NCBI GenBank assembly: GCA_026874595.1
Contig: CM049321.1
Coordinates: 47,829,297 to 47,893,296 of the forward strand
Length of the DNA: 64,000 bases
Source of the DNA: Sipunculus nudus
Taxonomy: Eukaryota; Annelida; Sipuncula; Golfingiida; Sipunculidae
Direction of reading: 5' to 3'
This document shows, one piece after another, positions 5,735 through 61,104 of this stretch (its first letter is position 1; every line of letters starts with the position of its first letter). Position numbers and translations under genes: made by a program. Under the pieces are notes generated by a model that had not been told where the DNA came from, searched no databases, and was given only the letters and a program-made list of their open reading frames with translations.

Positions 5735-7650
5735 GTCACTTGTTATAATGACTTGTCACCTGGATGTCATTTCCCATAAATTTCCACCTTTTATTATTTT
5801 CAACCCTGCCATCATTCCTAACGACCATGGCTTTTGTTTTACTCAGATTTACTTTCATACCATAATTCAGACAGAATTTTTCTAGAATTTTCTTCATGCT
5901 TTTGTAACTCAGGAACCGTATCGCCAAACAGCACTATATCATCTGTATACATTAAAAAAGACAGATTTGGCATTCCTTGTGATAAGAATATCCTCCTGTT
6001 ATTAAATTGTTTAACTTTTGTGTGCCTCTCCTGATATTTTTCATTGTGCGCCACATTTCATTGTTGGTATGACATGATATAAATTGTCCTGTTGTTTTCT
6101 TTTCAAACAGTTCACTTTTTTTATTTACAGGTTTCTATTAAAGAGTTCCTTCTTTCTTTGATAGTCAATAAAATTATTTTTTTGCTATCAGTCAATTTAG
6201 AATTATTAAAAGCTTTATATTTTGCTAGTCTTGCTGACTCGCATGCCAATTTCCACCACCTTCGTTGTTTGATACACTTCCTTTTAGTGTTGGACTTCTA
6301 TATAAACGTATTGTCTGCCATGTGCTGCATCATTTGTGCTGATATTTCAGCAGCCTTGTTACGATCATTGTTAACAATACCGTAAAAACACTAACGTTTC
6401 TTTAACTGTGTTATCTTTATCCCAACAGTAATGATAAGATTTTCTGTTTCTATACCGTACCCATACTATTTCTTCCTTTTCATCAAATTGATAAATGAAT
6501 TTGTATTTGTTGTAATTACCATTTCTGCTGCCACTGGAAAATGATCTAACATATTCATATTTAACATTGTGTGTTTATAAAATTTAGAGTATAACCTGGA
6601 ACTAACAATTATATAATAAATTTGGCTCTTGGACTAAGGATGAACAATATGTGTATGCACCTTGCATATCTGGATTGATACGACCATTTAATATTCTCAA
6701 GTTAAGCACTTTGCATAGTTCCTGCAGTGATTTGCCACATAATTGACTGTTTGATACTTACCATTTCTCTTAATTTAAAATTATTTAGGTATACAGCTAT
6801 TCCTAAATATTTTGTATCATCATCTCTCAGATAGTCTTGCAAATATCCTATTCTGGCGTTAAATTCCCCCATCATTATGATTTCCAAATCTTCATATTCA
6901 CATAACAATTCAGATATAATATATTCTAGTCTCATCAAAAACGCAGTATACAGCTCAATGTTTAGGTGCAATATATACAGACAGTAATAAAAACATCTTT
7001 CAACAGCCCCAGTCGATCCCCTTTTAAATAATATCAACATATCTGTATACCTGGTTATGACAGTCTTAATATAATCTTTGTACTAGTTTTTCACATAAAC
7101 CCTTTTACCCCCACTTTTTATATTTATACACCTCACTGCGGAATAGCCGGTATACCCATAGAATGAGCTCCTAAATTCTTGTGAATTTTCTGCCCATGTT
7201 TCAACAACTGTGATCACATCATTATTTAAAATAAGATGCCTCAATTCATTTTGCCATATATGTTTTCTTAGACCATTTGCATTCCAGGTTAGTAACCTAA
7301 AAGGTATCTTATCAACATGATTACTTACTGCTGTGGAACCTCTCTTAACTAATGTATTACTCAATAGCTCACCACGTTTTGTTGATTCTATGTTAGTAAA
7401 TTGGCCGTCAGCTCTGAGTCCCTTGTTTAATGTTTTAGTAAGAGTGCAAGACTGTGCGCTGTGCAGATAGGTCAGTGAATCACCTGAACACATGAGACAG
7501 AAACATAATTACTATCACCATCCTTATAAAAATGTAATTAATTGTCAGCATCAGTAATACCATTACCATTATTCACTGCTAATTTCAAACGAACAACAGT
7601 ATTACAAAGATTTGAAACATTTTGGTTCTTGTTATTAGCACATAGAAGAT
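5735..7650 (-). mobile_element. LINE ORF2 fragment, 5'-truncated with internal deletion
   Basis: This continues the fragment at 2918..3310. On the minus strand it encodes the NANGLRKHIWQNELR endonuclease start (frame 7493..7083), the GEFNAR region (7040..6702) and the YTDDIVLFGDT polymerase remnant (6054..5839). About 850 bases, including most of the RT core, are deleted near 6010 relative to 18190..24430. The copy at 29193..33190 has the same deletion and the same 5' truncation point. The copy is non-functional. Confidence 0.85.
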
Positions 7651-15841: not shown

Positions 15842-18110
15842 CATATATATATATATATTTATATATATATAGGTTTGAGGAAATACTATTATGACGTATG
15901 GCATGTATAAGTCATGCTTTTTGATGCAACACATGTTGTGACACGTTTTTTCCTTTTTTCGAACTCCAGGTTCCTGTATTGGCTGTCATGGAAGAACATG
16001 CATTCAGACAACGGATGCTTGTGTACATTTTATATTAGAGAAGGTAAATTGGTACAGAGCTTATCATTTGTGTAAAACCTTAGGCTGGGACATGTTGATC
16101 CCTAACGTAACATCTTTGAGATCCCCAATGGACGGGCACTCATATTGGATAGGTCTCCAAAAGTCCGAATGGTTTCACGATGGTCAGCCAGGTAATTATC
16201 TAATTTTTCATTTGCTATTAAGATACAATTTACTATCCCATATCTCTGCCCAAATCAGAATATTAGCTGCTATCTGCATCAAATATATTTAACTAAAATA
16301 CAAAAAAATCCTTTTAATTTTTTTTAATAAATTATACTTGATCTGTGTTGTTTGTGTTTAGCATATTGTGCATGAGTGTTTTTATAATTTATAAAATTTA
16401 AACAAATATTAACAAAATCCTTTATTTGGAAAAAATGAAGTTTTTCGTTTTAAAGGTAATAAAATAGATTTTTTGTCGAGTGTCAAGGCGAATAACAATA
16501 AAATAATATTACGGTTTTACTGCAGTGAGAAATATTAAAGAATTAAAATGGGTACCGCCGGGGAAAGGATATGACAACAACAGCGGCACCTGTGCTGTAA
16601 CTAATAAAACATTTTGGGAACCAGTTTCATGTGACTCTTTCTACGACACCGTTTGTGTCGGCAGTGGTGATTATCCTTAAAAAAGATTAAGGAGATTAAA
16701 AAAACTCTTAATTATGATCAGAATTTTACTAAAACTACTCTATTATTTTTCTCTTTTGTCCTTTACCTCAAATAATATAATTATTTTAAAAGGCTTACCT
16801 AAAATTAGCTAGCCTAAAAAAGGGTAGCAATTTTGAAGTTATATTGGAAAAGGATAAATCTACGGGCTGCGGATTTGTCGCATTTTTGAATGGCTAAATT
16901 GAACTTTGAACTGTACATCAAATATGACCATCTTTCATCTTGACTCAATGTCTTCTTAAAAGGCCAGGTAAAGAAATCTCTCTTTCATTATAAATAAAAG
17001 TGTGCCAGTGAGTGTCTTTTAGAGAGCCAAAATAAATTTCCCCAAGCAACCAAACGTTGGAAGAGCACATTTCTGGATCTTTTCTTAGGTAACACTGTAA
17101 AGAGAAAACCACTGCTCAGTTACAGCTATATATTTGTAATTATGAATACCCTCATCAACCAAGCAGACCAGAAAGCAATGTGGAGCCGCGAATCAATCAA
17201 CAGTCATCCTCGATCCTTTTTGTTTTGGCGCAATCATTGACCCATGAAAAATATTATTATATTACCTTGCTTTTGTTTATGAGAGACTAGATTAAAATTA
17301 ATTGTATCTTTGATCTCAACAATTCGGTGGTCGCAAGGCGAGTTCCCCCTTTGTTTCTTTTAAAGACTATATTAATGTAAGTTTGAAGAGTCAAGATTTA
17401 AGCATGCAGCAACACGCATTAATGTTAAAATAGAATAAAAATGTTCTACATTTTATTAAACGAAACAATATTCATAAATAATATTATTTTTGCAAGTTCC
17501 TTTTTTTATATTTATGAAGGATATTTAAAATAGTTCACATGAATATTACAACGACAGTTTTTCATGTAACATATTCGTATTCGGAATGTAAGCCTACATT
17601 AAACATAACCCATTAGACATGATGAAATTCGTAATTTTCAGAGGACAGTGATAGCGTGTACAATTCCCATAAAGAAGCTTCGTTTTCACAAAGTAAATCC
17701 GACTCAACATCTGAAGACATATATGACACAAGTGAGATGCTTGTTCCAGGGACTGCATATACCCAAATAGATAGCTAATGCACCAGTTTAATATTTACCA
17801 TTTTACATTTTCTTTTGTGCATGCTATCTTTACACAACAATTGGTAATATTTTCCATCCGGTGTGAATGAGCTTTCATCATTTGTTTAAGCTTGCTACAA
17901 ATTAATCTTCGTCAATACTTGGAATGCCGTCGGCAATGTTTACTTTGTTTAAATTAGCAGGGATCGAAATATTCATGATAATGACAATATTTACTTTAAT
18001 GTCTGTAAGACGTGACAGTAAGTGGGTCCAGAAATAGGCATGAGGACCTGGGAAGAATAAAAAGACAATACTTCAGAAGTTTACTGTAAAATTGGAGGAT
18101 CTATGAATAA
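14136..18110 (+). pseudogene. Lectin unit 2: inactivated two-CTLD receptor gene
   Basis: All exon types except the tail are recognisable but several are broken. The signal exon starts at 14136, hits TAA at 14163 and has lost its donor (GCGGT to GCGAT). CTLD1 exons are 14305..14475 (open) and 15271..15377; the latter lost one base at the donor (AAAGGTT to AAAGTT). A partial, stop-containing copy of the CTLD2 first-half exon lies at 15634..15770, followed by a complete one at 15970..16191. CTLD2 second half is 16526..16666 (open), stalk 17642..17731. The membrane exon near 17925..18024 is open but its acceptor AG is lost and the helix gains Lys and Glu. An AATAAA lies at 18106. It cannot give a secreted receptor as it stands. 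Confidence 0.8.
15470..15872. repeat. (TA)n arrays bracketing a duplicated exon segment
   Basis: AT dinucleotide arrays at about 15470..15534 and 15778..15872 flank a copy of intron plus partial CTLD2 exon that is repeated to the right (15535..15770 against 15870..16110). The arrangement suggests that the duplication arose by slippage or unequal exchange between the arrays. Confidence 0.75.
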
Positions 18111-19348: not shown

Positions 19349-22300
19349 TTAATTAATTCCTTGGGCTAAATAGACTTTCCTTTTCTCAGTTGCCCAATAA
19401 ATGTATAAGGCCAGACTGTTTATAACTTGTATGTTACTGCTGGACATCAGAAATGTAAAGTTATCCATACCAGCTCCTGTTATTTCATTTTCTATATATT
19501 TTCTCCTGATAATATTGTATAATCCACATTCCATAATAAAATGATTTTAATCTTCAACAATATTAAAACCTTTATTGAAACAATATGTGCATAACCGGTT
19601 CTCTCTAGGTGTTTTATGTCTTCTCCCCATTTCCACTTCTAAATCATGTATTGAGCATCTGAACCTGGCCAGGTACAGTATGTTCCTTTTTTGGGGTATA
19701 CATGTTAAGTATTTTTCTATTTCCAACACTGATTTAAAATGCCCATATGTTTTGAGTCGCTTGTTATTAGTTATTTGTTGGTGCCATTCCTGTATACCAA
19801 TGTCCCTTATTCTTTGTCTAAATTCTCGAATAAATTTATTACAATCACCTACATCCTGAAAAATCCACACATACCCAAACCCATATCTGTATAAAATTTC
19901 TTTCACCTTAGTTGCCCAGTTAATTCTTCCTGACGTGTCCATTTGATACAAACAATAATATGCTTGTTTGGGTAAACGTCCGTTTTGCATATATAATATT
20001 TTCACCCAGTACAATATTACCTTTATTATACCCTTGAGCTTTAAAGGTAACCTGCCATATTCACCTAACACAGCAGGGTTAGGAGCCGCTGAATTTAAAT
20101 GGAGTAAGCTTTTACAAAATTTATTTTGTACCCTCTCTATTTCCTCACAGATATTCCACCCCCATATTTCACTTCCATAAAAGAGTACGGACTCCACCAT
20201 CATATCAAACATATAAAAAAGTTGTTGTGGTGTAACATATTTGCATTTCAGCCAGTATCTTTTTATCATCCCAACTGCTTTCTGTGCCTGATTTACCTGG
20301 TATTTTTGTGTTTTGTTCCATTTTCCAAAACTTGTGTATATGGTCCCAAGGTATTTATAATGACTTGTTACCTGGATGTCATTTCCCATAAATTTCCACC
20401 TTTCATTATTTTTAACCCTGCCACCATTCCTAAATACCATGACTTTTGTTTTATTCAGATTGACTTTCATACCATACTTCAGACAGAATTTTTCTAGAGT
20501 TTCTATATGCCTTTGTAACTGACCAACTGTATCGCCAAACAGCACTATATCATCTGCATACATTAATAAAGATAGGTTTGGCATTTCTTCCGATAAGAAT
20601 ATACCCCTATTGTTAGATTGTTTAATTAGTAGATTGAGTTCATTCATAAACAAAGTAAATAATGTGGGGCTGATCATGCATCCTTGCCTTGTGCCAGTTT
20701 GACACTCAAAATATGTTGTTAATCCATTTTCTGTTAGAATGCATGAACTTAGTTTAGAATATAAGATTCAACAGTCATATAAAAGTTTCCAGAAATTCCG
20801 TTTTTTAACAATACATATTTTAAAACATTGTGATTTATGCTGTCAAAAGCCTTGGAAAAATCGACATACAATACATATACTCTTCCTTTTTGTCTGGAAA
20901 TGTATTTTTTTATCACTGCCATGAGTGTGAACATATTGTCTATTGTACATCTTCCTTTTCGAAACCCTGCTTGCTCCTCTGCTAAAATATCTCTTTCATC
21001 TAACCAGCTTATAAACCTGTTATTCATAATTTTACAAAATATTTTACCTATACAGTTTAATAAAGAAATTCCTCTGTAGTTGTTTACATCTTCAGTATCG
21101 CCACTCTTATACAGAGGCATAATAATAGCTTTGGCCCAGTCCCCTGGATATGTTGAATGTTTAAACACACCGTTAAAAAGTGCATGCAACAATGGCAGTA
21201 ATTTATCTATGAAATCTTTAAAAAATTCTGTTACCAGTCCATCAGGTCCAGGTGCTTTACCTGATTTCATTTGTTCAACCACAGTTCTTATTTCTGTAAA
21301 AGTTATTTCCTTGTTTAAAGTTATATTTTCTGGACCTGTAAGGTATTTAGCATCTGAATTCAACACCTTTATAACCTCCTGCTCAAATATAGGATCTAAC
21401 TTTATCTGATTATCTTCTAGGAGATTGTTAAAATAATCAAACCATTTTTGTTTTGAAATATTATTTTTTCTCTGTGTGCCTCTCCTGATATTTTTCATAG
21501 TGCGCCACATTTCATTGGTGGTCTGACAGGATGAAATCTGTCCTGTTGTTTTCTTCTCATACAGTTCACTTTTAAATTTACAGGTTTTTTTAAAATGTTC
21601 CTTCTTTCTTTGATAGTCAATAAAATCATTTTTACTATCAGTCAATCTAAACTTATTTAAAGCTTTATATTTCTCAATTCTTGCAGACTCACATGTCACA
21701 TCCCACCATCCTGGTTGTTTGATACACTTCCTTTTAGAATTGGTCTTCTTTAAATATGTATTTTCTGCAATGTGCTGCAAAATTTGTGCTAATGTTTTGG
21801 CAGCCTTGTTAGGGTCATTGTTAACAATACCGTAAAAAACACTAAGCATTTCTTTAACTGTGTTATCTTCATCCCAACAGTAGTTATTAGCTTTTCTGTT
21901 TCTATACTGTACCCACATAATTTCTTCCTTATTATCCAAATTAATACTTGAATTTGTATTTGTTGTTATCACCATTTCCGCTGTCACTGGAAAATGGTCT
22001 GACATGTCCATATTTAACACTGTCAGTTTATTAAATTTAGAGTATAACCCTGAACTAACAATTATGTAATCAATTTGGCTCTTGCCAATAGATGAACAAT
22101 ATGTGTAATCACCTTGCACATCTGGTTTGATTCGACCATTTAATATTCTTAAATTAAGCATTATGCATAACTCTTGTAGTGATTTGCCAAAATTATTGAC
22201 TGTTTGATCCTTACTGTTTCTCTTTATTCTAAAATTATCTTCTAGGTATGCAGATATTCCTAAATATTTAATATCATCATCTTCCAGATAATCTTGCAGA

Positions 22301-23217
22301 TATCCCATTCTGGCATTAAAGTCCCCCATCATTATTATATCCAAATCACCATATTCACATAACAATTCATATATAATATTTTCTAGTCTAATAATGCCTT
22401 TATCCTCTTCAAAAACACTGTATACAGCTGAATATTCAGGTGCAATATATACAGACAGTAATAAAACATCTTTCAACAGTCCCATTTTATCCCCTTTTAA
22501 AATAAATATCAACATATCTGTATACCTGGTTATGACAGTTTTAACATAATCTTTAAAGCAGTTTTTCACATAAACCACTATACCCCCACGTTTTACATTT
22601 ATATCCCTCACTGAGGCGTAGCCTGTATACCCATAGAATGAGCCCCTAAATTCTTGTGAATTTTCTGCCCATGTTTCAACAACTGTGATCACATCATTTT
22701 TTAAGAAAAGAGCTCTCAATTCATTTTGCCATATGTGTTTTCTGAGACCATTTGCATTCCTGGTTAGTAACCTAAAAGGTATCTTATCAATGTGATAACT
22801 TACTACTGTAGAATCTCTCTTAACTAACGTATTGGTCAAAAACTCACCACTTTTTGTTGAGTCTATGTTAGTAGACTGGCCATCAGTTCTGGTTCCCCCT
22901 TTTAAGGTTTTAGTAAGAGTGCAAGACTGTGCGCTGTGCAAAAATGTCAATGAATCACCTGAAACACATGAGACAGAAACATTATTACTATCACCATCAT
23001 TATAATGATATAGCTCCTCTTCAGCAACAGTAATATCATTAACATTATTCACTGGAGAATTCAAATTAATAACATTATTACAAAGATTTGAAACATTTTG
23101 GCTATTGGAATTAACACGTTGTAACTGAGAATTGAAGGAGGCATGTTCATTACACATAGTAACCTTGTCTTCAGACAATGAGAAATTATTAACGGTTCTA
23201 GGGCTTTGGCCACAACC
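19349..23217 (-). pseudogene. LINE ORF2: APE endonuclease and reverse transcriptase, two lesions
   Basis: The protein copies element RNA into DNA at a nicked target. The N-terminal half has APE endonuclease motifs in order: NANGLRKH, TVVETWAEN, IIMMGDFNAR, KSQIDYIIVSS and MSDHFPVTAEM. The RT half follows: KSGKAPGPDGL, NNYRGISLLNCIGK, AEEQAGFRKGR, YVDFSKAFDSINH, GTRQGCMISP and LLMYADDIVLFGDT. A C-terminal LCTYCFNKGFN and HFIMECGLY stretch resembles the cysteine/histidine tail of many LINEs. One single-base frameshift lies near 20755 (before GTRQGC), and one in-frame TAA at about 19537 splits VED from NHFIMEC. There is no ATG at its start: it follows ORF1 in the same frame after a single TAG, and its first Met is about 22 codons in. 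Confidence 0.9.
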
Positions 23218-29192: not shown

Positions 29193-32100
29193 ATTGAATG
29201 AATATGAATATATTTTTTATTCTGGTTTAAAGGCATCCGGCCCATAGAACCAATAAAAGTACAACTGATATTGTTTATATATATTTAAACGTTAAAGTAA
29301 CAATATAGTAAATACAAAAATAAATAAATTAAAATAAATAAAGATTATTGCATGCATTTGGTTATACGGAATAGTAGATAACAATGAGATTTAGTGTATT
29401 TTTAAAAATAAATAACAATTATAATAATAATGTTAACAATAAAAAAAGAGTGTTGGAATGATACCATAATACACTCCAAATACCCCTAATGCAAGCAGTA
29501 CACAAAGAAAGTGCAAAGCATATAAAATACATAAAAACAATTAATACAATGCACATAACCCAACTGTAATAAGAAAAGAAAAAAAGATAATAAAAATGAT
29601 CCTATGATACTATATTACACTTGAAAGAACCCAATACAAGTAGTACAAATGACAGTGCAAATTAATACAAAATACATAATACAAATTTAAAAGGGAAAAA
29701 GGAGAAAAAAAAGAAAAAAACATACAAATAAAGAGAACTAAAGCAATTGCATCACAATATTATTTACAAGATCCTTAAACAAAAATTGAAAATTAAAAAA
29801 AAATTAATAACACAGAATATGTAACAGCAATTTACACACAATGGACAAACATGCTTAAAACTAAGTTTATATTCATAAAGAACTGTACGTATGAGAATAA
29901 TAATTAAGTATATAATTATTTCTTATTTGCAGATGAAAAATACATTTTAGAGCAAACATATCATGATACAAATTAAACATTTATAATATAATATAATATA
30001 ATATAATATGTTCATCTGTTTTGAAAATATTCATCTGTGACTTACTGGACATACAAACATTTTGCATCCGTTATTTATATTCATGTATTAGCAACCATTT
30101 TACAGGAACATTAACAATGATAGATGTATTATCTTAAAGTAAAGGTTCTACTCCTTTAACACAAAAGTTCCCTTGCAGATTGGCATGCTACAATATTTCA
30201 TGTTTTATTACACTAACTGAGCCGGGTGCAAGTTTATTTTCATTTATGCACACGAGTAAGCATAAAGTTTCAGAAATAAATATATAAATAAAGGCAGTAT
30301 AACTTTAACATATTGGGTATGTTATAAGTCCCTTTAATAAATTTCTTGGTCTATATAGATTTTTCTTTTCTCAGTTGCCCAATAAACATATGAAGCCAGA
30401 CTGTTTATAACTTGTTTGTTACTGCTGGACATCAGCCATGTAAAGTTATCCATACCAGCTCCTGTTGTTTCATTTTTTTATATATTTTCTCCTGATAGTA
30501 TTGTATAATCCGCTTTCCATAATAAAATATTTATTAAAATGATATAACGATAACACCTTTATTGAAAAAATATATGTGCATAACCGGTTTTCTCTTGGTA
30601 TATTAATGTCTTCTCACAAATTCCACTTCTAATTCATGTACTGAACATCTGTCCCTAGCCAGGTAAAGTATATTCCTTTTTTTGGGGTATACATGTTAAG
30701 TATTTTCCAGTACTGAGTTAAAATGCTCATATGTTTTAAGGCTCGTGTTATTAGCTATTCGCTGGTGCAATTCCTGTATACCAACGTCCCTTATTCTTTG
30801 AATTCTCGAATACATTTATTACAATCGCCTACATCCTAAAAAATCCACACATACCCAAATTCATATCTGTAAATAATTCCTTTTACCTAAGTCGCCCAGT
30901 AAATCTTCAAAATGAGTTCATTTGATACATGCAATAATATGCTTGTTTTGGTAAACGTTTGTTTTGCATATGTAATATTTTCACCCAGAAAACCTGCCAT
31001 ATTCACCTAACACAACCGGGTTAGGAGCCGCTGAATTACAAAATTTATTTTGTACCCCCTCTATTTCCTCACAGTCATTCCATCCCCATATTTCACTGCC
31101 ATATAACAGTACTGACCTCACCATCAAATTTAACATATAAAACAGTTGTTGCGGAGTAACATATTTGCATTTCAGCCAGTATCTTTTTATTATCCCAGCT
31201 GCTTTCTGTGCCTGATTTACCTGGTATTTTTGAGATACTGTCCATTTTCCAAAACTTGTGTATATTGTCCCAAGGTTTTTATAATGACTTGTCACCTGGA
31301 TGTCATTTCCCATAAATTTCCACCTTTTATTATTTTTAACCCTGTAATCATTCCTAAAGACCATGGCTTTTGTTTTACTCAGATTTACTTTCATACCATA
31401 ATTCAGACAGAATTTTTCTAGAATTTTCTTTATGCTTTTGTAACTCAACAACCGTATCGCCAAACAGCACTATATCATCTGCATACATTAAAAAGACAGA
31501 TTTGGCATTCCTTGTGATAAGAATATCCCCCTATTATTAAATTGTTTAACTTCCACGTGCCTCTCCTGATATTTTTCATTGTGCGCCACATTTCATTGTT
31601 GGTATGACAAGATATAAATTGTCCTGTTGTTTTCTTTTCATACAGTTCATTTTTTTATTTACAGGTTTCTATTAAAGAGTCCCTTCTTTCTTTTATAGTC
31701 AATAAAATCATTTTTGCTATCAGTCAATTTAGAATTATTAAAAGCTTTATATTTTGCTAGTCTTGCTGACTCGCATGCCACTTTCCACCATCTTCGTTGT
31801 TTGATACACTTCCTTTTAGTGTTGGACTTCTATATAAATGTATTTTCTGCAAAGTGCTGCATCATTTTTGCTGATATTTCAGCAGCCTTATTAGGATCAT
31901 TGTTAACAATACCGTAAAAACACTAAACATTTCTTTAACTGTGTTATCTTTATCCCAACAGTAATGATTAGATTTTCTGTTTCTATACCGTACCCATATA
32001 ATTTCTTCCTTTTCATCCAAATTGATAAATGAATTTGTATTTGTTGTAATTACCATTTCTGCTGCCACTGGAAAATGATCTAACATATTCATATTTAAAA

Positions 32101-33190
32101 TTGTGTGTTTATAAATTTAGAGTATAACCTGGAACTAACAATTATATAATCAATTTGGCTCTTGGCTATAGATGAACAATATGTGTATTCACCTTGCATA
32201 TCTGGATTGATACGACCATTTAAAATTCTCAAGTTGAGCACTTTGCATAACTCCTGCAGTGATTTGCCAAATAATTGACTGTTTGATCCTTACCATTTCT
32301 CTTAATTTAAAATTATTTAGGTATTCAGATATTCCTAAATATTTAATATCATCATCTCTCAGATAGTCTTGCAAATATCCAATTCTGGCGTTAAATTCCC
32401 CCATCATTATCATTTCCAAATTTTCATATTTACATAACAATTCAGATATAATATATTCTAGTCTCATCAAAAACGCTGTATACAGCTCAATGTTCAGGTG
32501 CAATATATACAGACAATAATAAAACATCTTTCAACAGCCCCAGTCGATCCCCTTTTAAAATAAATATTAACATATCTGTATACCTGGTTATGACAGTCTT
32601 AATATAATCTTTGTACTAGTTTTTCACATAAACCATTTTACCCCCACTTTTTATATTTATACACCTCACTGCGGAATAGCCGGTATACCCATAGAATGAG
32701 CTCCTAAATTCTTGTGAATTTTCTGCCCATGTTTCAACAACTGTGATCACATCATTATTTAAAATAAGATGCCTCAATTCATTTTGCCATATATGTTATC
32801 TGAGACCATTTGCATTCCAGGTAAGTAACCTGAAAGGTATCTTATCAACATGATTACTTACTGCTGTAGAACCTCTCTTAACTAATGTATTAGTCAAAAA
32901 CTCACCACGTTTTGTTGATTCTATGTTAGTAGATTGGCCGCCAGCTCTGGGTCCCCTGTTTAATGTTTTAGTAAGAGTGCAAGACTGTGCGCTGTGCAGA
33001 AAGGTCAGTGAATAACCTGAACACATGAGACAGAAACATAATTACTATCACCATCATTATAAAGATGTAATTAATTGTCAGCATCAGTAATACCATTACC
33101 ATTATTCACTGCTAATTTCAAACTAATAACAGTATTACAAAGATTTGAAACATTTTGGTTATTGTTATTAGCACATAGAAGATATTATGC
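29193..33190 (-). mobile_element. Second LINE copy, 5'-truncated with the 850-base RT deletion
   Basis: Same family as 18190..24430. The 3' region (29193..30300) matches that copy, including the terminal TGAATGAATATG motif. ORF2 pieces on the minus strand include frames 31463..30981 (KFCLNYGMKVNLSKTKAMVF), 32092..31862, 32527..32189 (GEFNARIGYLQDYL) and 33026..32796 (SAQSCTLTKTLNRG). ORF1 is absent. It shares its truncation point and internal deletion with 5735..7650, so the two are one insertion copied by segmental duplication. Confidence 0.85.
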
Positions 33191-46039: not shown

Positions 46040-48152
46040 CTTGAAAAATATAATGAAGGACTGATGTTTAATGTTTGTCTTTTCACAATGTTTTTCTTTA
46101 TTAGCCAGCATGACAAACAATCGAGAATTGCAGAGGGTAAATATTTTGCCTGATGCAGCTGCAAAATGAGCCAAAACAAATTGAACATCGTTCATGTCTC
46201 CCAATGATGGACTTCCGCGTAAAAGTAGAACAAACAGCTTATCTTGTTTACTTATTATCCAATTATGTAATAACGAAACTGACATTCCTGTTTCCTACAA
46301 GCGGTACTGATTGTAATCAACGTTTACATCCGTGTCACTGGGAGTGAAGAAAGCAATAATATAGTGGTACATTTATGAATATTAAAGTTTCCTTGATACA
46401 ATACAAAGAGTATTTAATATAATAAAGACATATAATTCCACAATAAACAACTTCATTGCCATCAAGGAAGGTTAATAAGCAATTTGTATTCAGAATTACC
46501 TTTAAAGTAAACGTTTGTTTTCTTGGAAAGTTCCTATTTAATGCATACTATATACACTTCCCAGTCACTGCTATTAACAAAAATTAATTTGCCCAGACAT
46601 GAGATGGAAAATATAAAAAGGCAAAATGGCAAGAGTCTGAATCATGTCAATGTATTTGTTGTAATTTACAACAAAATGTCATAACTAAGGAAGGAATTCT
46701 CATAGATTTAAAACTACTAACTCCTAGTTAATTTTAATGAATAAATTGTAGTTACCACACTTAATATTTATTAGACGTATTGTTTAAATCCCTTTTCCGA
46801 TGACAAAGGAAGAATATCTTTATGAACCTGCGCTCTTTCATTTTACATTTTGGGCAATAGGTCGTAGACATCACTTGCAACATCTAATTTGTTGACAGGA
46901 GATATAAGAAAAGAAGAAGTGTCTTCTCAACAAATATAACATGAAAATAATTATGAAAATTCTTAATTCTCCTTACAATTAGAAGTACTTCTTCTTATTC
47001 TGTAAAAGCCCTGGATATCAGATTGGTTTTCCGCTGCCAAGAGCGCTATCCTATCATTGCTGTGTTCTTGAGTTCACCAAGTTTTAAATAGAGAAGTCAT
47101 TATTTGGGTCGTCTTGAAAAACAACATTATACACATTGCACATTTTGTGTTGTACGAATGCAGACGTTAGGAAGAAAATAAAATATTTCACATTTGTTAA
47201 GTTTCTGTTTTAATTTTTTTGGTAAATCAAAATGTCATGTCTTTACATGAATATCATTACAAAACATCTGAATATCATAACAAAAGGCAATTAAATTTAA
47301 AGGATCACAGAATATAAGTCACAACTCCATTCCAGTTGTGCCACCAGTAAACTAAAATGATTTTATAGTTAAAGAGACAGGACTCATCCTTCGGGAAACA
47401 ACTATACCGAACATGTTGTTCCAAAATATGTCCCCAATGACGCCCTTAATTAGTCTGTAGTTTTAGAATGACATATTACATGCATAACAGAAAAGGCACA
47501 GGAGGCCATAGCAAGCAGAATGCAGAAAAGCGCCACCTGGAGGCATAACAGATCACAAGTCAGTTGGAAGTTAATATCGCACTTTTAAAGCCTTCAGGAT
47601 GCTTCAGAAAAACATGACTGTCTGAACAGTTGTTTTGAAATATATATGAATAAATGATACCAGGATCATATTCCAATATTCTGTTTTTAAATCCTATATT
47701 CCCGGATTATATTTCAGATATTAATTACCACGTTGAGATTGGCCATCATCGACCCTTACTCAATTCATTATTCACATCTTAAAATTTTAAATCACTTTAT
47801 AATTGAGATGTTAACTCTAGCAAAACAGAAAATTGAGGTGTTTTTGTCATTGCAACAAGATTAGAACTGAATTTTACAATTGACAGGCATTTGTGTATAT
47901 GCTGTGCGTTCACCTCTCACTTCTTCGTAGTTTGTCACTTCCTCACTAAGCCCCTTAAGCAAAATCTCAACTTCTACCTGGCATTACAAATGGCTACCGC
48001 AATAAGTGCAGTCAACACATTGTGGGCCCTAGCGATATGATAGCTAAATATGTACCGGTTTTGTAGCGTACCCAGGGAGCCAATCCCGGGAAGTAAATTG
48101 TAAAGCTTTCTGACCCAGATATTCGGGGGGGGGGGGGGGTAGGGCTTTTTAC
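46040..48152. other. Stretch with no firm gene
   Basis: No recognised exon. A short hydrophobic frame at 48032..47988 on the minus strand (NVLTALIAVAICNA, ending at a GT) might be a remnant of a membrane exon for the unit on its right, but the phase does not fit simply. Confidence 0.3.
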
Positions 48153-48542
48153 CTCCAGGAACACAGATGGTATAGTGTTCTGATTCACATAATACGGGTT
48201 TCCAGATTTCTCCGTTTGATACTGCACAGGTGGCGCTGTCGTCGGCACTACCTGTTGATATCCATCGTGAGTTCATCATTTTGTGGACTGCAATAAATGT
48301 TAAGTTTTAAACACGTATTGTCAGCTGTTTTTCTTTAAATGGATTCAAAATCTTAAACGTTTTGGTTCCTCTCAGGATCAAATCCCAGAGTAGGCATTGA
48401 TCGTAGGCTTTGTACCACGTGACCCTTCCTATCTTGTAGTGTACACAGGAGCCTTTAATGTTATGGCAAGTTTCCACATCACAGCCTCTACAGGCCCCTG
48501 AAAATAAACATTATCGTATTAATTTATGATATAGAAATAGCA

Positions 48543-49980: not shown

Positions 49981-50679
49981 GGGGGCCACTGACTTCTTTA
50001 TTCATTCTTTATTAAATTTTTTGTATCCCCATTACAAACTTTAAGTTCGTCACGACTACGTAATCTGTTGATATTAGGTTCCATAACAATAAAAAGACAT
50101 TTACCTTGAGGAACGGTATCCTCATTTATAAAGGTCCAGTTTATGTGTTTCTTCCTAATTGAAAGCCAAAATATCCCTTCCTGGAATATGCTGCTCACAT
50201 CCTGTCCAAACGGCAACACTTTGTTTGCCAGCTGACAGGTTTCTTTCGCTGAGGTGTAGTTCCGTGGTCGCAGAAATCCAATGATACCTAAAGGCATGGA
50301 TATACAGAAAAGGTTCGGAGTCCTGGTTTCCTTTACACAGATTTTTTTTTTTACATTTTTCTGAGAGACATAGGCCTTCTTTAAAAAAAAAAAAAAAAAA
50401 AAAACGGAAATATACCTCTACCTGACTTGTCTTCATTTTAAAACTATGGACGGGCAGACATTATTTTTTAATACATGCTCTTATTTACTAAATAAGCCCA
50501 GGTCTAAAGAGCAGATACGTTATTGATAAAAAGCATGATTGTTCAAACAATCTAATAACGTTTATCCAACATTTTAACGACTGACCGAAATGCTCATATA
50601 AAATAAGGTTTACTGTACCTTGATTTGCAAGACATTGTAAATTCAAAAGCACCAGTAACAAAAATATTATGCAATACAT

Positions 50680-53185: not shown

Positions 53186-53194
53186 TATATATAA
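53186..53194 (+). promoter_or_regulatory. TATA box of the six-cysteine precursor gene
   Basis: TATATATAA lies 60 bases before the start codon, with TTCCAGTTG near 53221 as a possible initiator. Spacing fits a TATA-driven promoter with a 5' UTR of about 25 bases. Confidence 0.6.
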
Positions 53195-53245: not shown

Positions 53246-56053
53246 ATGATGAGGGTATTACTGTGCGTCGCTGTGTTGTTTGTCATACCACTGACATTGG
53301 CAGATTCAGACCTTGAACAAGAAGACGAAATCGTAAGTTGGTTGATAATCGTTTGATTTTTGGTTCCGGAGTAATGCGTCTGTTCAGATTTTAGCTCCTA
53401 ATGTGTGTATTTTAAATGTTTAGTGATGTTTTGGCCTGTCACTTCTTATTGTTAGTTAGGAACCAGATACTTTAATAATGGTTTGTTCTTTTACAGATTT
53501 ATCTTAGGACCATTGCGCTGAATATATGTATTCGTATACAAATGTGTGTGTATTTGTGTGTATGTGATTACTGCTAGTCCTTGGCTAAATACGTTCGGTG
53601 TTTTCTGGCCCATTTTCATAAAAGATTTAAAGGAGTATTTTAGTTAATATGCGTCAAATATCAGAATAGAACATATAAGCAAAAAAGAGTTAGTTAACAG
53701 TACGGTCCCCAGCCTCTGCAACTAATATGCGACGTCATTGTGGCCATAAGATTAATTGAATATGACGGTATTTGAATTTTAAAGCGTATTTTACGGTTAT
53801 ACCTCATATTATGATGACGTCATCACTTGTCAAATGACGTCGTTACTTATATCAAAACCGCATATTAATTACCTACAATTTGACAAATTAAACAATTGTC
53901 TAACTTTTTTAAGACTTTGAAGTGCCTTTCATGTGGTCTCCAAATATGCATTGGTTGCCATGGAAACAATTAGAAAGCACATTTCCGTCCAGATACAGAT
54001 CATAAGCTTTTCAGATAAAGTGGTCGCTACCAGTCGCATATCGGTTGGAACGGGAAGCTTAAACAAGCGACTTTATTTCATTTATTCCATTAAAAAATAA
54101 CCAGCATTAATATTTAACTTGAACGTAACAAATACTTTATTTGGGCCTCTTTTGTCAGTCGCTGCCGATACTGATGAAGATCATTGGAGTTTAAAAAACA
54201 AAAGGCATGCAATAACTGCCGCATGCAATAATACTTATAAAATGCCTTTAAAATAATATGAGAACTTAAACAACTGAGAACACTGAATACCTGAATTGGC
54301 CTCTGTGAATTCACCCTACCTGTTTGAAATTGCTTTTTTTCGTTAGAAAGAGGTCGTGGTCGAAACAGAGGTTGGACTGACCGCTGCAACTGCGTTTCAG
54401 GTGTCACACGTGGACAAGAGGGGTAGGTGCTGTGTACAAAATTCATCCAGACCTTAACTAGATATGCATATGATGCCTGCCATATTGAATCAGAATCCAT
54501 AGCCGATTTTAAGAAGGGTAATAGTGAAGGCCATAAGCTTGAGGTTCTAAATACCTAACTGATACATGATGATTTGTAGACGCTATGGGCTCAATTAATT
54601 TCATTTGATCAATACTGCAGCTACTCCCTGTTAAATTCCTGGACTTGGGCAGCTCGTAACCGCTGGGTGACCGTGACAGCTTGGTGATTGTGACGGCTGA
54701 TACCGCAGTGCAGTCTGCGAAATCTCGATGGTTGTATCAGCTAAATGGCCGTAATAGTTGGGGTTCTGACAGCGGTGTAATAATTTTAAATGAGTATAGC
54801 CGCGACTGCAAGGGGCACTGCCAATTAGCTATCCGTGATAGCTGGGTGCCAGTGATATTGGTGTGACTCTGACAGAGGTGTGGCTCTGATAGCTGGTCAT
54901 AATAACAGAGTGGGCGTGATACCTTGGTTTCGGCTCGGTGATCGTGACAGGCGGATGAGTTATAGCTTGGTGATTCTGTCAGCTTCGGCGGTCCTGGCAG
55001 GTTCGTGGTCGTGACAGATGGGTGGTCGTGAAAGCTGGGTAGTCGTGACGGCTCTGTAACCATGACACCTATATATGTGATCGTGGGACCTTGATAGTCG
55101 CGGTAATATGGTGATCATTACAGCTTGGTTGTCGTGGCAACTTGGTCACCATGAAACCTGGATGGTCTTACAGAACTCATTATGAGTGCCGGGTGAATAC
55201 AGACGGTACCTCCAAAAGTTAGGAAATCGACAAATAAAATAAAATAAAATATTTTAAATGAACATTAAAATTTAAAACTTAATCCTTGTAGGTAGATGCA
55301 GATCATTGGACATGCAGTTAGTGGTCGCCTGTTTTGATGGTATTCCGGACAGAATTGGAAGCTTGAAGGGCGTACCACCTTGCAGGTTAGTCATGCTTCC
55401 CGTTTAATACACTCAAGGTCCGTTACAAACCATACATTTATTAATACACGTGGGTGCTCTCTGGGACCATATAGTTAGAGCAAACATATTGACGATGACC
55501 TCTTTGTTCATCAGATTTCTACCAATTTTTCATTCTCGTTGTTTCTCTTTCTGCTCTTGTTTGTGCATTATATTTACACAAAACATTTTGTACAGAAAAT
55601 ATCAATGCCTCTGAATCATGGAATCATGGAACTTTGCAGTGAGAAAGGTCTTAAAAAACTAGATATTCTGCATTCTAAGGAATGTAAGGAATGTAGTTGT
55701 GGGGATTCCCAAAACCTATCAATCATAAGTGCGTAATTTGTGCCCTTGTCTCATTCCTATTATAGGTGTTACAAGTACAAAAACTTTTTTTTAATTATTA
55801 ACAAATCAAATCATATACTTACAAAAAATACATTACAGGCAAGGCATCAATTCACTTAACAAAATGACACAAATACACAATCATAACACAAATGGTACGT
55901 TTTGGTATAAAGGAATGAATTATATACTAAGTGTATATATATACAGATCTAGTACTAATACAATCTATTTTTAATGTTTATACTGCTTCACCTATGCAAG
56001 TATCAATGTTGTAAAATATATCCAGAACTCGCGATAAATTGTAATTATTTTTG

Positions 56054-56093
<40 letters not shown>

Positions 56094-57014
56094 TACATAT
56101 ATATATTTATATATATATATATATATAATATATATCTTCCGACTATTCCGAGATTTCAGCTCTGTTAATAGAGACTATCCTGTTTCTCTTTTAGAACACG
56201 CTACCGTCTCTTGCTCGAGTTCCAGACATGCGCATTGAAGTATGACTGTCAAGATAACTACTACGTGAAGAAAGCCATCCGTCTCTCGATGGAAAAATAC
56301 GACAATTTCCTGAAGTCGCGGGGTAGGGATTACACAACCGCTTTACTTATCCCCCTTTATCACATTTTATCTGATATTCAGCGTACTCTTTTTAATAATA
56401 TAATGAAGAGAAGCTTAAGTATAACTTTAAACGTAAAGATTCCATAAATATATAACTTGCGAATTAAGTTAAAATCTGATTTACGAATAAGATGTGGAGT
56501 GTTTAATGTTACAAGACAGGAAAAAACTTTTGATTCATATTTAAATGTAACTATTCATTGAATGTACTACTTAAATTGATATCCAATTTACAAAGACAAC
56601 GGCGAGTGTTTCATTGTACCTTAATGGGCACTTTTCATATTCAGGATTGGTTACACGGCAGTTCTCGTAAATATTGGATTTTCATTCGCTCCTATTGATT
56701 CAAAACACAGAATTTAAATTTATATATAAAAATAAAAATAAGTTTTAAATATTAGGTTTAAATACTAAAGGAATCTAAATGAAGATATTCATAAAGTTTA
56801 TCTTTTGCTGTAAGAGGATTAAACCCATAGTGTTCTTCACATCCTTTGATCAATATTATATTTTATTGAGACACACATCGTAATCACAACGGAGAGGATA
56901 AGTTTTGAATATATGAGTAATATCCAGCTATGATATATATCATAGCTGGAATTATCTAATGATAATTTAACGTTCTTTACATACATGAATTTCTTTCCAG
57001 ATATCTTCTGTTAG
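53246..57014 (+). CDS. Secreted six-cysteine peptide precursor, 132 aa, family unknown
   Basis: Five exons join in matching phases (0, 1, 2, 1): 53246..53332, 54347..54422, 55292..55385, 56195..56322, 57001..57014. All have AG acceptors and GT donors. The protein begins MMRVLLCVAVLFVIPLTLA, a clear signal peptide, then an acidic stretch (SDLEQEDEI) and a propeptide ending HVDKR, a dibasic site for a prohormone convertase. The mature part of about 78 residues starts GRCRSLDMQLVVACF and ends SRDIFC with six cysteines spaced C-10-C-16-C-12-C-5-C-26-C. This layout fits a hormone, growth-factor or defence peptide; I do not recognise the cysteine pattern. CHH/ITP, insulin and macin spacings were considered and do not match. 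AATAAA follows 28 bases after the stop. Confidence 0.75.
54640..55180 (+). repeat. Degenerate minisatellite in intron 2 of the six-cysteine gene
   Basis: A unit close to TGGTGATCGTGACAGCT, about 17 to 20 bases, recurs with drift across some 500 bases (for example near 54666, 54685, 54948, 54970, 55011 and 55083). It is GC-richer than the surrounding intron. Confidence 0.7.
56058..56135. repeat. (TA)n microsatellite in intron 3 of the six-cysteine gene
   Basis: Imperfect AT dinucleotide array ending about 60 bases before exon 4. Confidence 0.9.
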
Positions 57015-57042: not shown

Positions 57043-57048
57043 AATAAA
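57043..57048 (+). terminator. Polyadenylation signal AATAAA of the six-cysteine gene
   Basis: Canonical hexamer 28 bases after the TAG stop, followed by a GT-rich run near 57062..57086 that fits a downstream element. Confidence 0.65.
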
Positions 57049-58655: not shown

Positions 58656-58850
58656 TGCTGAAACGTTATCCCGTAACGGTCGAGGGGTAAAACGCTCGAC
58701 GCTCTCCGCTGGCGACCCGGGTTCAATCCCCGGCGTGGCAATGAGAGTGGGTTGTAGTTGCCCGTCCAAGGCCGGTAGTTTTCTCCGGGTCCTCCGGTTT
58801 ACCTCACCTATAAAGATTACCAATCGCCACAAAGCCGTGCCAGGTAGAGT
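58656..58850 (+). mobile_element. tRNA-derived SINE
   Basis: A tRNA-like head (CGAGGGGTAAAACGCTCGA, then B box GGGTTCAATCC at 58719..58729) is followed by GTTTTCTCCGGGTCCTCCGG at 58780, a conserved central motif seen in several SINE families of marine animals. Confidence 0.65.
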
Positions 58851-58859
58851 GCCTCGTAT

Positions 58860-60345
58860 TAGTTATTTTAACCAGCAGTACAATACATGTAAAACAACTA
58901 AACGTTTATAACACAAAGAATAAAGTTCAGGGTGACGTGTTTTCCACTTTCTACAGAGGACATATACGGACCTACCATCACGTGAAGTTTGAAAAGGTGC
59001 AATTAATAAATTTGAGAGATCAATTAATGATATAGATTTCATGGGAATTCATACACTGAGAAATCATTTATATGAATTTCATTCACATTAGCTTCTGAGG
59101 CACCACACGTGTTTTCGTCATATAACACAGAAAAAAATCGCCTAAAGGGTTCATTTTGGAGCAGATGAAGTTTGAAACTCTTGGGTCTTAATACGGTTAC
59201 GATTTGTGCTCTGTTAAATGACGGATGGTAGCCTCTGTGGTTTTCGCTCCTTATTTCGGAGATTAGAAGCCACAGCGATTTCCTTTTTCGTTTTCCATGG
59301 ATGACATACAGGGACCTGTGAATTCCCGTGCCCTGTTAGGGTACGGTCAGAGAAATGGCGGATTCCGTCGAGCTGGGACATCTTTCATATTATCGATTCA
59401 TTTTATCATTTATTCGTTTTTTTTTGTAAGTTTCAGTCTTCAGCTTTTTTGTTCGTCTGTAAATCAACAGTTTATTATACTTTCTAACTCACGAGTTAGT
59501 TTAGGATATTAATAATTAGCTGTGTAATTTGCACATTAAAGATGATTCATAAAAAGGATTAAACCCCCCCCCCCCCCAATCGCACTAGTCCACGAGTAGG
59601 GCACGTCCTCAAAATGTCCTCTTTGCACTGCTTATTTAATAATATACCTATAATTAACTTAAAACACTACATATGAACATTAATAATAACAGTATTTAGC
59701 AGAGGCTGTAGAGTAGCAATATAGCGACTTCTGGCAATAACGTATACCCAAGCGGCCTTTACATAATAAACGGGTCAATGCTGACGTCAAGGGCCTGTGG
59801 TTATACAATGAACCAACAGGAGCAGTATATTTAGGCCTATATATGCTTCGGATTCTGTGGAGCCTTGCAAAACGTTTTCGTTTGACTGAATTTCAAAACT
59901 GCCTCAGCCATTTCCTTTGTCAATATACAGATCTTGTTGTGACAAACAGACATGACGACCATCAGATTGAACATGAATTGATCAGGAGTAAAAAGGAGTC
60001 AGGAGTCCTCCGCTAAACCTGACTGCCACCTTTTAATAATATTTACTGAAGGCTCGTTCAGAATTTGTTTCGATATTGTGAAGGTAAACAGTGCATCTCA
60101 ATACACACAAATGGGGATGGATGGTACACTCTTGGCGTATCCAATTAAGGTCAACAACTAAAATGTAATATTTAATCCAATTAAAAAAAAAAGTTAGTAC
60201 AGGTGTCTATACGTTTACACGAAATTTGTGCGTATCCTCTAGTAAATCAGTTTCTGGTGATAGCCATTAGATCGGTATCTGTATTTTAATGAACCAGCAT
60301 GCACCAAAACTGTTTTACTTAACAGCAGACATTTGAGCACGTAAT
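58860..60345. other. Intergenic, no gene seen
   Basis: No coding exon was recognised. A poly-C run lies at 59566..59578. It may include part of the 3' UTR of the minus-strand gene to its right. Confidence 0.4.
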
Positions 60346-61104
60346 TTATTTTGCAATCTTTGGTACCAAGTTTTCTTCAAAATGTGCTATAGCATTTGGT
60401 AGGTCATCACCGTACAACAAGAAGCCATGATTCTTTCTTATATAAACCTTGTCCTTTGGATAAGGATATTCCCGGATAATCTGGATTAAAGCCGCTGTAT
60501 CTTCCGGGGTGGAAGCCATGGTTTCATCTGTGGAGCATGGAAACCCGCATGCGGCAGCCTCCTCTTCCGTTGCTAAGGCGTGACCATGGAGACACGCGGT
60601 GGTTGCTCCAATCAAATCCTCGTTTTCAATGCTGGCTTCTCCATTTTGTAAATGTTGACTATTTGTACCTGGGCCCTCTGTCTTTGTCAGCGGAAGACTT
60701 CCCGACAAGTCTTGCCCATTTAAGAACTTAAGGCCGCAGTAATGCAAAGGAGTATCACAAGTCGGGAGAACTGCAGGATTTGACGAATAATATTTGCAGC
60801 TCCAATCATAGACCCCGAAATCTGTGACGACACAGAAATCTGTGTCAACGTTAGGACGTTTTCCTGGCAGTTTGCCAGACTTGCTGACAACAAGCATACC
60901 TTTATACAAAACCGCCGCGTTCCCGCCAACTTTACCGTCGGGTAATACTGGGGTGACACCTGCCGACTCCATTTGGAACAATATATCAGCCAGCTGGTCG
61001 CAGAGTTTCCTGACTTCTGTGTAATCTTCAGATGATAAGTTATCTTTCAGTGTCCCGAGCCAGGTCCGTGTGAAGCGGACACGCACGGGTCCATGGCCCT
61101 CACC
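60346..61104 (-). CDS. Class II aldolase/adducin-domain protein, last exon
   Basis: An open exon of 252 codons plus TAA, starting in phase 0 after a TTGTAG acceptor (reading GEGHGPVRVRFTRTW). The fold is recognisable: VGGNAAVLYKGMLVVSKSG (near residues 59..77) matches the GN-S-R-mlI-SG core of class II aldolases, DTPLHYCG (118..) matches the substrate-loop His segment, ACLHGHAL (171..) gives the metal-binding His-x-His, and YIRKNHGFLLYGDD (221..) the third metal His. So Zn binding residues are kept and an enzyme, for example a fuculose- or ribulose-phosphate-type aldolase or epimerase, is possible; adducin-like members lack them. An insertion of about 35 residues separates the LH and HGH segments. 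Upstream exons were not found in the remaining 2.9 kb. Confidence 0.75.
   Translation of the reverse strand, partial: GEGHGPVRVRFTRTWLGTLKDNLSSEDYTEVRKLCDQLADILFQMESAGVTPVLPDGKVGGNAAVLYKGMLVVSKSGKLPGKRPNVDTDFCVVTDFGVYDWSCKYYSSNPAVLPTCDTPLHYCGLKFLNGQDLSGSLPLTKTEGPGTNSQHLQNGEASIENEDLIGATTACLHGHALATEEEAAACGFPCSTDETMASTPEDTAALIQIIREYPYPKDKVYIRKNHGFLLYGDDLPNAIAHFEENLVPKIAK

Follow-up and report, generated by a model that had tools for sequence, protein, structure and literature searches.

Peptides of the crustacean hyperglycaemic hormone (CHH) type are 72 to more than 80 residues long and contain six cysteines, and in Carcinus the CHH gene carries an intron behind residue 40 of the mature peptide (PMC7560641). 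PMC10138031 describes the genes of the CRP-I cysteine-rich peptides of Mytilus as multi-exon genes encoding a signal peptide, a propeptide, a KR or RR site and a six-cysteine mature part, lying in clusters on more than one chromosome and accompanied by pseudogenes. The CRP-I array is of the knottin type, C(X3-6)C(X1-7)CC(X3-4)C(X3-5)C, and the mature part is reported to be under positive selection (PMC10138031). The eclosion hormone precursor of the oyster is secreted, contains a dibasic site and carries two ligands with six cysteines each (PMC8398477).

The window analyzed here is a 64-kb stretch of DNA (C16:47829297-47893296) from a genome of 1.43 Gb, and it contains a gene built on a comparable plan. 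Its likeness to CHH and to CRP-I is incomplete, since each of them fails a tested feature. The gene almost certainly belongs to a real family of secreted six-cysteine proproteins that is uncatalogued in the libraries searched. To the overall statement, that such a family exists and that it has the role of a defence-type secreted effector, we assign a probability of about 0.45.

Structure of the gene and its precursor

A preliminary description of this DNA had proposed five small exons with matching phases, and this model was confirmed: the exons, when spliced, give a single frame encoding a precursor of 132 residues, with junction phases of 0, 1, 2 and 1 (Table 1). The donors read, in order, GTAAGT, GTAGGT, GTTAGT and GTAGGG, and AG closes each of the four acceptors. 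No second copy of the gene was found within the window. The next best match, at 59873 (E 1.5), was rejected as a paralogue, as no family-like exon was seen nearby by eye. Intron 2 contains a degenerate repeat (window 54637-55159, + strand) with a step of 17 nt, in which eight copies of a 45-nt reference were counted at 60% or more.

The precursor consists of a hydrophobic leader, an acidic propeptide with a net charge of -9, a Lys-Arg site and a mature part of 78 residues, which is basic (net +5) and contains six cysteines. The putative signal peptide, also proposed earlier, is recognised by its hydropathy (best 11-residue mean 3.62). The cysteines are located at positions 3, 14, 31, 44, 50 and 78 of the mature part, corresponding to precursor residues 57, 68, 85, 98, 104 and 132, so that the sixth is the final residue of the protein. 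They are spaced C-x10-C-x16-C-x12-C-x5-C-x27-C, and no two of them are adjacent. Two introns interrupt the mature part, one after residue 31 and the other within residue 75.

When the exon 4 piece alone was folded by AlphaFold2 without an alignment, two helices were obtained, at residues 2-16 and 23-42 (mean pLDDT 78.7, pTM 0.43; the last residue of the folded piece was Gly, which is Asp in the spliced protein). Exon 4 is therefore predicted to encode a helical hairpin. No informative model came from exon 3 folded by itself (mean pLDDT 47).

Table 1. Elements of the window gene (window positions) and family loci elsewhere in the genome (contig positions). The complete genes are the window gene and the five loci so marked.
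Feature	Position	Strand	Details
TATA motif (TATATA)	53186..53191	+	starts 60 nt before ATG
Exon 1: putative signal peptide, propeptide start (MMRVLLCVAVLFVIPLTLADSDLEQEDEI)	53246..53332	+	ends in phase 0
Exon 2: remainder of acidic propeptide and Lys-Arg (54416-54421)	54347..54422	+	ends in phase 1
Exon 3: first part of mature protein, Cys 1-3	55292..55385	+	ends in phase 2
Exon 4: Cys 4-5 and predicted helical hairpin	56195..56322	+	ends in phase 1
Exon 5: end of Asp codon, Ile-Phe-Cys, stop (TAG)	57001..57014	+	14 coding nt
AATAAA polyadenylation signal, then GT-rich stretch	57043..57048	+	starts 29 nt after stop
Complete gene	C16:39619782	+	
Complete gene	C16:39627122	+	
Complete gene	C16:39646996	-	
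Complete gene	C16:39702592	-	
Complete gene	C14:17153083	-	
Partial locus	C16:39630786		exon 1 outside the DNA examined
Partial locus	C16:39658825		exon 1 not found
Partial locus	C16:39598295		exons 1, 2 and 5 not found
Partial locus	C7:45816910		exon 4 and possible exon 5 only
Damaged locus	C16:39676521		exon 4 shorter by 12 nt; exon 5 reads past last Cys
Altered locus	C16:39688904		Phe replaces last Cys
Altered locus	C16:39694801		Tyr replaces fifth Cys; model without exons 1-3
Damaged locus	C16:39682403		stops
Damaged locus	C14:17147183		exon 4 shortened; splice sites missing by eye
Damaged locus	C14:17142595		no acceptor for exon 3 seen by eye

A family of paralogous loci

Searches of the genome with the mature part of the window protein, with the corresponding regions from two paralogues and with one further exon 4 revealed at least 16 family loci in this genome, including the window gene; the final search returned 12 matches, all of which were already in the family. 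Eleven loci are clustered on contig C16 within about 110 kb (about 39.596 to 39.705 Mb), three are located at 17.14-17.16 Mb of C14 and one at 45.82 Mb of C7; the window gene sits by itself, 8.2 Mb away from the cluster on C16. The preliminary description was right about the gene itself and missed that it is one diverged member among 16 related loci, the majority of which form a tandem cluster.

The mature part of the window protein alone matched ten paralogous places (best E 1.3e-5), its own two exons and two unrelated places. One composition-matched shuffle of it gave two places, with a best E of 0.757. Matches on C5 and C3 (E 1.68 and 6.63), which were without the family residues and splice frame, were dropped, and those on C8 (E 5.65) and C12 (E 3) were dropped by E-value alone. 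All five exons, including the last with its 14 coding nucleotides, recur at other loci. Because related copies exist in the same genome, these are a genuine gene family and not chance open frames. It could be argued that open frames and splice motifs happened to line up here with no gene behind them, as every exon is small and isolated splice motifs occur often in AT-rich DNA. The entire exon chain, however, repeats in paralogues that are under purifying selection, and the shuffled control gave only weak matches. This explanation, whose likelihood is practically negligible, was rejected because the paralogues already refute it.

Complete five-exon genes were modelled at 6 of the 16 loci, all with the phases of the window gene; four loci are partial and six carry lesions or altered cysteines. 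Among the six complete genes, exon 1 measures 78-87 nt, exon 2 64-88 nt and exon 3 94 or 97 nt; the lengths of exon 4 (128 nt) and of the coding segment in exon 5 (14 nt) are constant. Counterparts of exon 1, with a leader of the MKVLLCVAVLL type, were found in the five other complete genes, whose exon 5 ends in G-[IV]-[ST]-C-stop. The TATA box and AATAAA noted earlier also recur: the former lies 56-65 nt before the ATG in five of the six genes, the latter 29-48 nt past the stop in all six. Small secreted multi-exon genes with a last coding exon of 14 nt can be missed by automatic annotation. Here the reading of the raw sequence was upheld exon by exon through the paralogues and led to a family unrecognised by Pfam, NCBIfam and PDB.

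The claim of an acidic propeptide closed by a KR site is also borne out, as exon 2 terminates in KR in all complete genes. The pro-piece, counted from residue 19 on, has a net charge of -6 to -12 in 6/6 complete precursors, and that of the mature part ranges from +2 to +10 in 11/11 compared (three counted without exon 5). In an alignment of eight mature proteins with exons 2 to 5, built from spliced models, the six cysteines are invariant, which supports the six-cysteine mature region of the preliminary description; P30, R34, A45, Y48, N53, A59 and D68 are invariant as well. Identity between the window protein and the remaining seven sequences ranges from 26 to 41%. In the tree, the window gene groups with C14:17153083 with a support of 91/91, and its precise position is unsure because its branch is long and this support lies below the mark for a firm fork.

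Eleven mature regions gave 55 pairs. In 50 of them dS could be estimated, and each of these 50 had a dN/dS below 1 (0.11 to 0.94), individual ratios being rough because dS is often high. The damaged copy 39676521 takes part in all six pairs with the highest dN/dS. The mature region of the family is thus under purifying selection on average. This result bears on the idea of a reproductive or chemical-communication protein, a tandemly duplicated product of a gland, egg mass or seminal fluid acting on a conspecific. Small secreted proteins that were duplicated in tandem and diverged would suit such a function, but selection that is on average purifying, not positive, speaks against it, and we regard it as quite unlikely.

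Comparison with known families and possible role

No family of Pfam-A was matched at E up to 10 by the full precursor or by the mature part. Weak Pfam matches of one of ten members (E 0.099) and one of eight members (E 0.14, to an unrelated family) were taken as chance, as were one of ten members in NCBIfam (E 0.29) and four PDB matches (three at E 1.3-1.5, one at E 4); a further PDB search gave no match. The NCBIfam query was the early alignment only, in which some residues at the exon 3-4 junction came from unspliced frames, and the same alignment underlies the ten-member Pfam search and the PDB search with the E 4 match. Hence there was no significant match to the family in Pfam, NCBIfam or PDB. 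Against them, the earlier statement that the cysteine spacing fits no family held. Six motif strings of the family were absent from 5.39 million open-access papers (sequences in figures or supplements would escape such a search), and no named match to the family was found in the literature. On viral contigs, 57 stretches fit a pattern and none of them encodes a family relative. The term "undescribed" holds as far as Pfam, NCBIfam, PDB and open-access motif strings are concerned.

The CHH / ion transport peptide superfamily resembles the family in precursor plan, size and number of cysteines, and CHH proteins are helical (PMC7560641). Here, too, a precursor-related piece and a dibasic site precede a mature part that lies within the range of about 72-80 residues and has six cysteines. 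On the other hand, the intron after mature residue 40 is absent, with introns at 31 and within 75 instead, and neither the precursor, the mature part nor the eight members gave a significant profile match in Pfam-A. A CHH profile exists in Pfam, and we take the cysteine spacing of CHH to differ from that of this family.

These features weigh on the proposal of a neurohormone or cytokine-like molecule, in which the Lys-Arg cut would free a three-disulfide helical hormone laid out like CHH and the paralogues would form a hormone family. The shared plan, in which a leader and a precursor-related piece are followed by a dibasic site and about 78 mature residues with six cysteines, favours it, as does the position of the window gene as a lone copy outside the cluster. 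It is opposed by the lack of a significant Pfam match, by the split after residue 31 and not after residue 40 as in the Carcinus gene, and by the cluster, since eleven loci with decaying copies are unusual for hormone genes. We regard a hormone or cytokine as fairly unlikely. The oyster eclosion hormone is similar in its secreted precursor, dibasic site and six cysteines per ligand, whereas the window precursor carries a single mature part and has no Pfam match.

The likeness to the CRP-I genes extends to the multi-exon structure, the order of leader, propeptide, dibasic site and six cysteines, the clusters on more than one chromosome and the pseudogenes. A dibasic propeptide site is present in our family, as KR in 6/6 complete genes. 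In contrast, the C-C-CC-C-C knottin array is absent, with no adjacent cysteines in the eight aligned proteins, exon 4 is predicted to be helical and selection is purifying on average. The family also shows a trait of cationic antimicrobial proteins, namely a basic mature part (11/11) and an acidic pro-piece (6/6).

From sequence features, we tentatively favour an extracellular defence-type effector, antimicrobial or immune-modulating, over a hormone, a preference held at somewhat less than even odds. It is based on the tandem array with decaying copies and on the basic mature part under an acidic pro-piece. The loci show a birth-and-death pattern, 11/16 lying in one cluster and 6/16 having lesions or altered cysteines, and the tandem array may be maintained by such birth and death of copies. 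Judging from the anatomy of the precursor, signal peptidase would remove about the first 19 residues, and a furin-like protease or prohormone convertase would cut after Lys-Arg. The acidic pro-piece, masking a basic three-disulfide protein that is helical at least in part, would then be shed. The cysteine that ends the protein probably completes the third disulfide; alternatively, it may link two chains.

Several points weigh against the defence role. On average, the mature region evolves under purifying selection, as opposed to the positive selection reported for CRP-I, a defence-type family of mussels; basic charge on its own is weak evidence; hormones are just as typically processed at dibasic sites; the window gene lies by itself, away from the cluster and on a long branch; and there is no known family from which a function could be transferred. 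Taken together, the roughly 16 loci may, at a little under an even chance, represent a new secreted immune or signalling class, encoding an unclassified three-disulfide protein, helical at least in part, that is released from an acidic pro-piece and has an obligatory C-terminal cysteine from an exon with 14 coding nucleotides. If the family serves defence or signalling, it would extend the known cysteine frameworks of invertebrates by a new one and offer a defined gene set for experiments.

Other features of the window and the assembly

Pieces of a LINE-type retrotransposon lie in two adjoining open frames at 19547-23217 (- strand) and match the PF03372 endonuclease (E 1.6e-11) and the PF00078 reverse transcriptase (E 1.8e-12 and 1.2e-21); shorter similar pieces were seen by eye at 6702-7508 and 30981-32530 (- strand). 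Open frames that resemble C-type lectin exons were also noticed by eye at 15942-16292 (+), 47974-48306 (-) and 49998-50417 (-), and these three gave no Pfam match at E up to 10. An open frame of 252 residues at 60346-61104 (-) gave a sub-threshold match to Aldolase_II at E 0.024 (15 bits, the cut-off being 22.2) and had no PDB match at E 0.001. The stretch at about 58680-58860 (+) presumably resembles a tRNA-derived SINE, with a box B-like GGTTCAATCC recognised by eye; ARAGORN found no tRNA in the window.

In the assembly, ten full-length matches to the COX1 family are open in the standard code, on contigs C60, C61, C62, C66, C72, C74, C75, C89 and C123, and a COX1 fragment was found on C5. 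The assembly seems to hold bacterial contigs, because the two COX1 matches that were read (C60 and C123) look bacterial.
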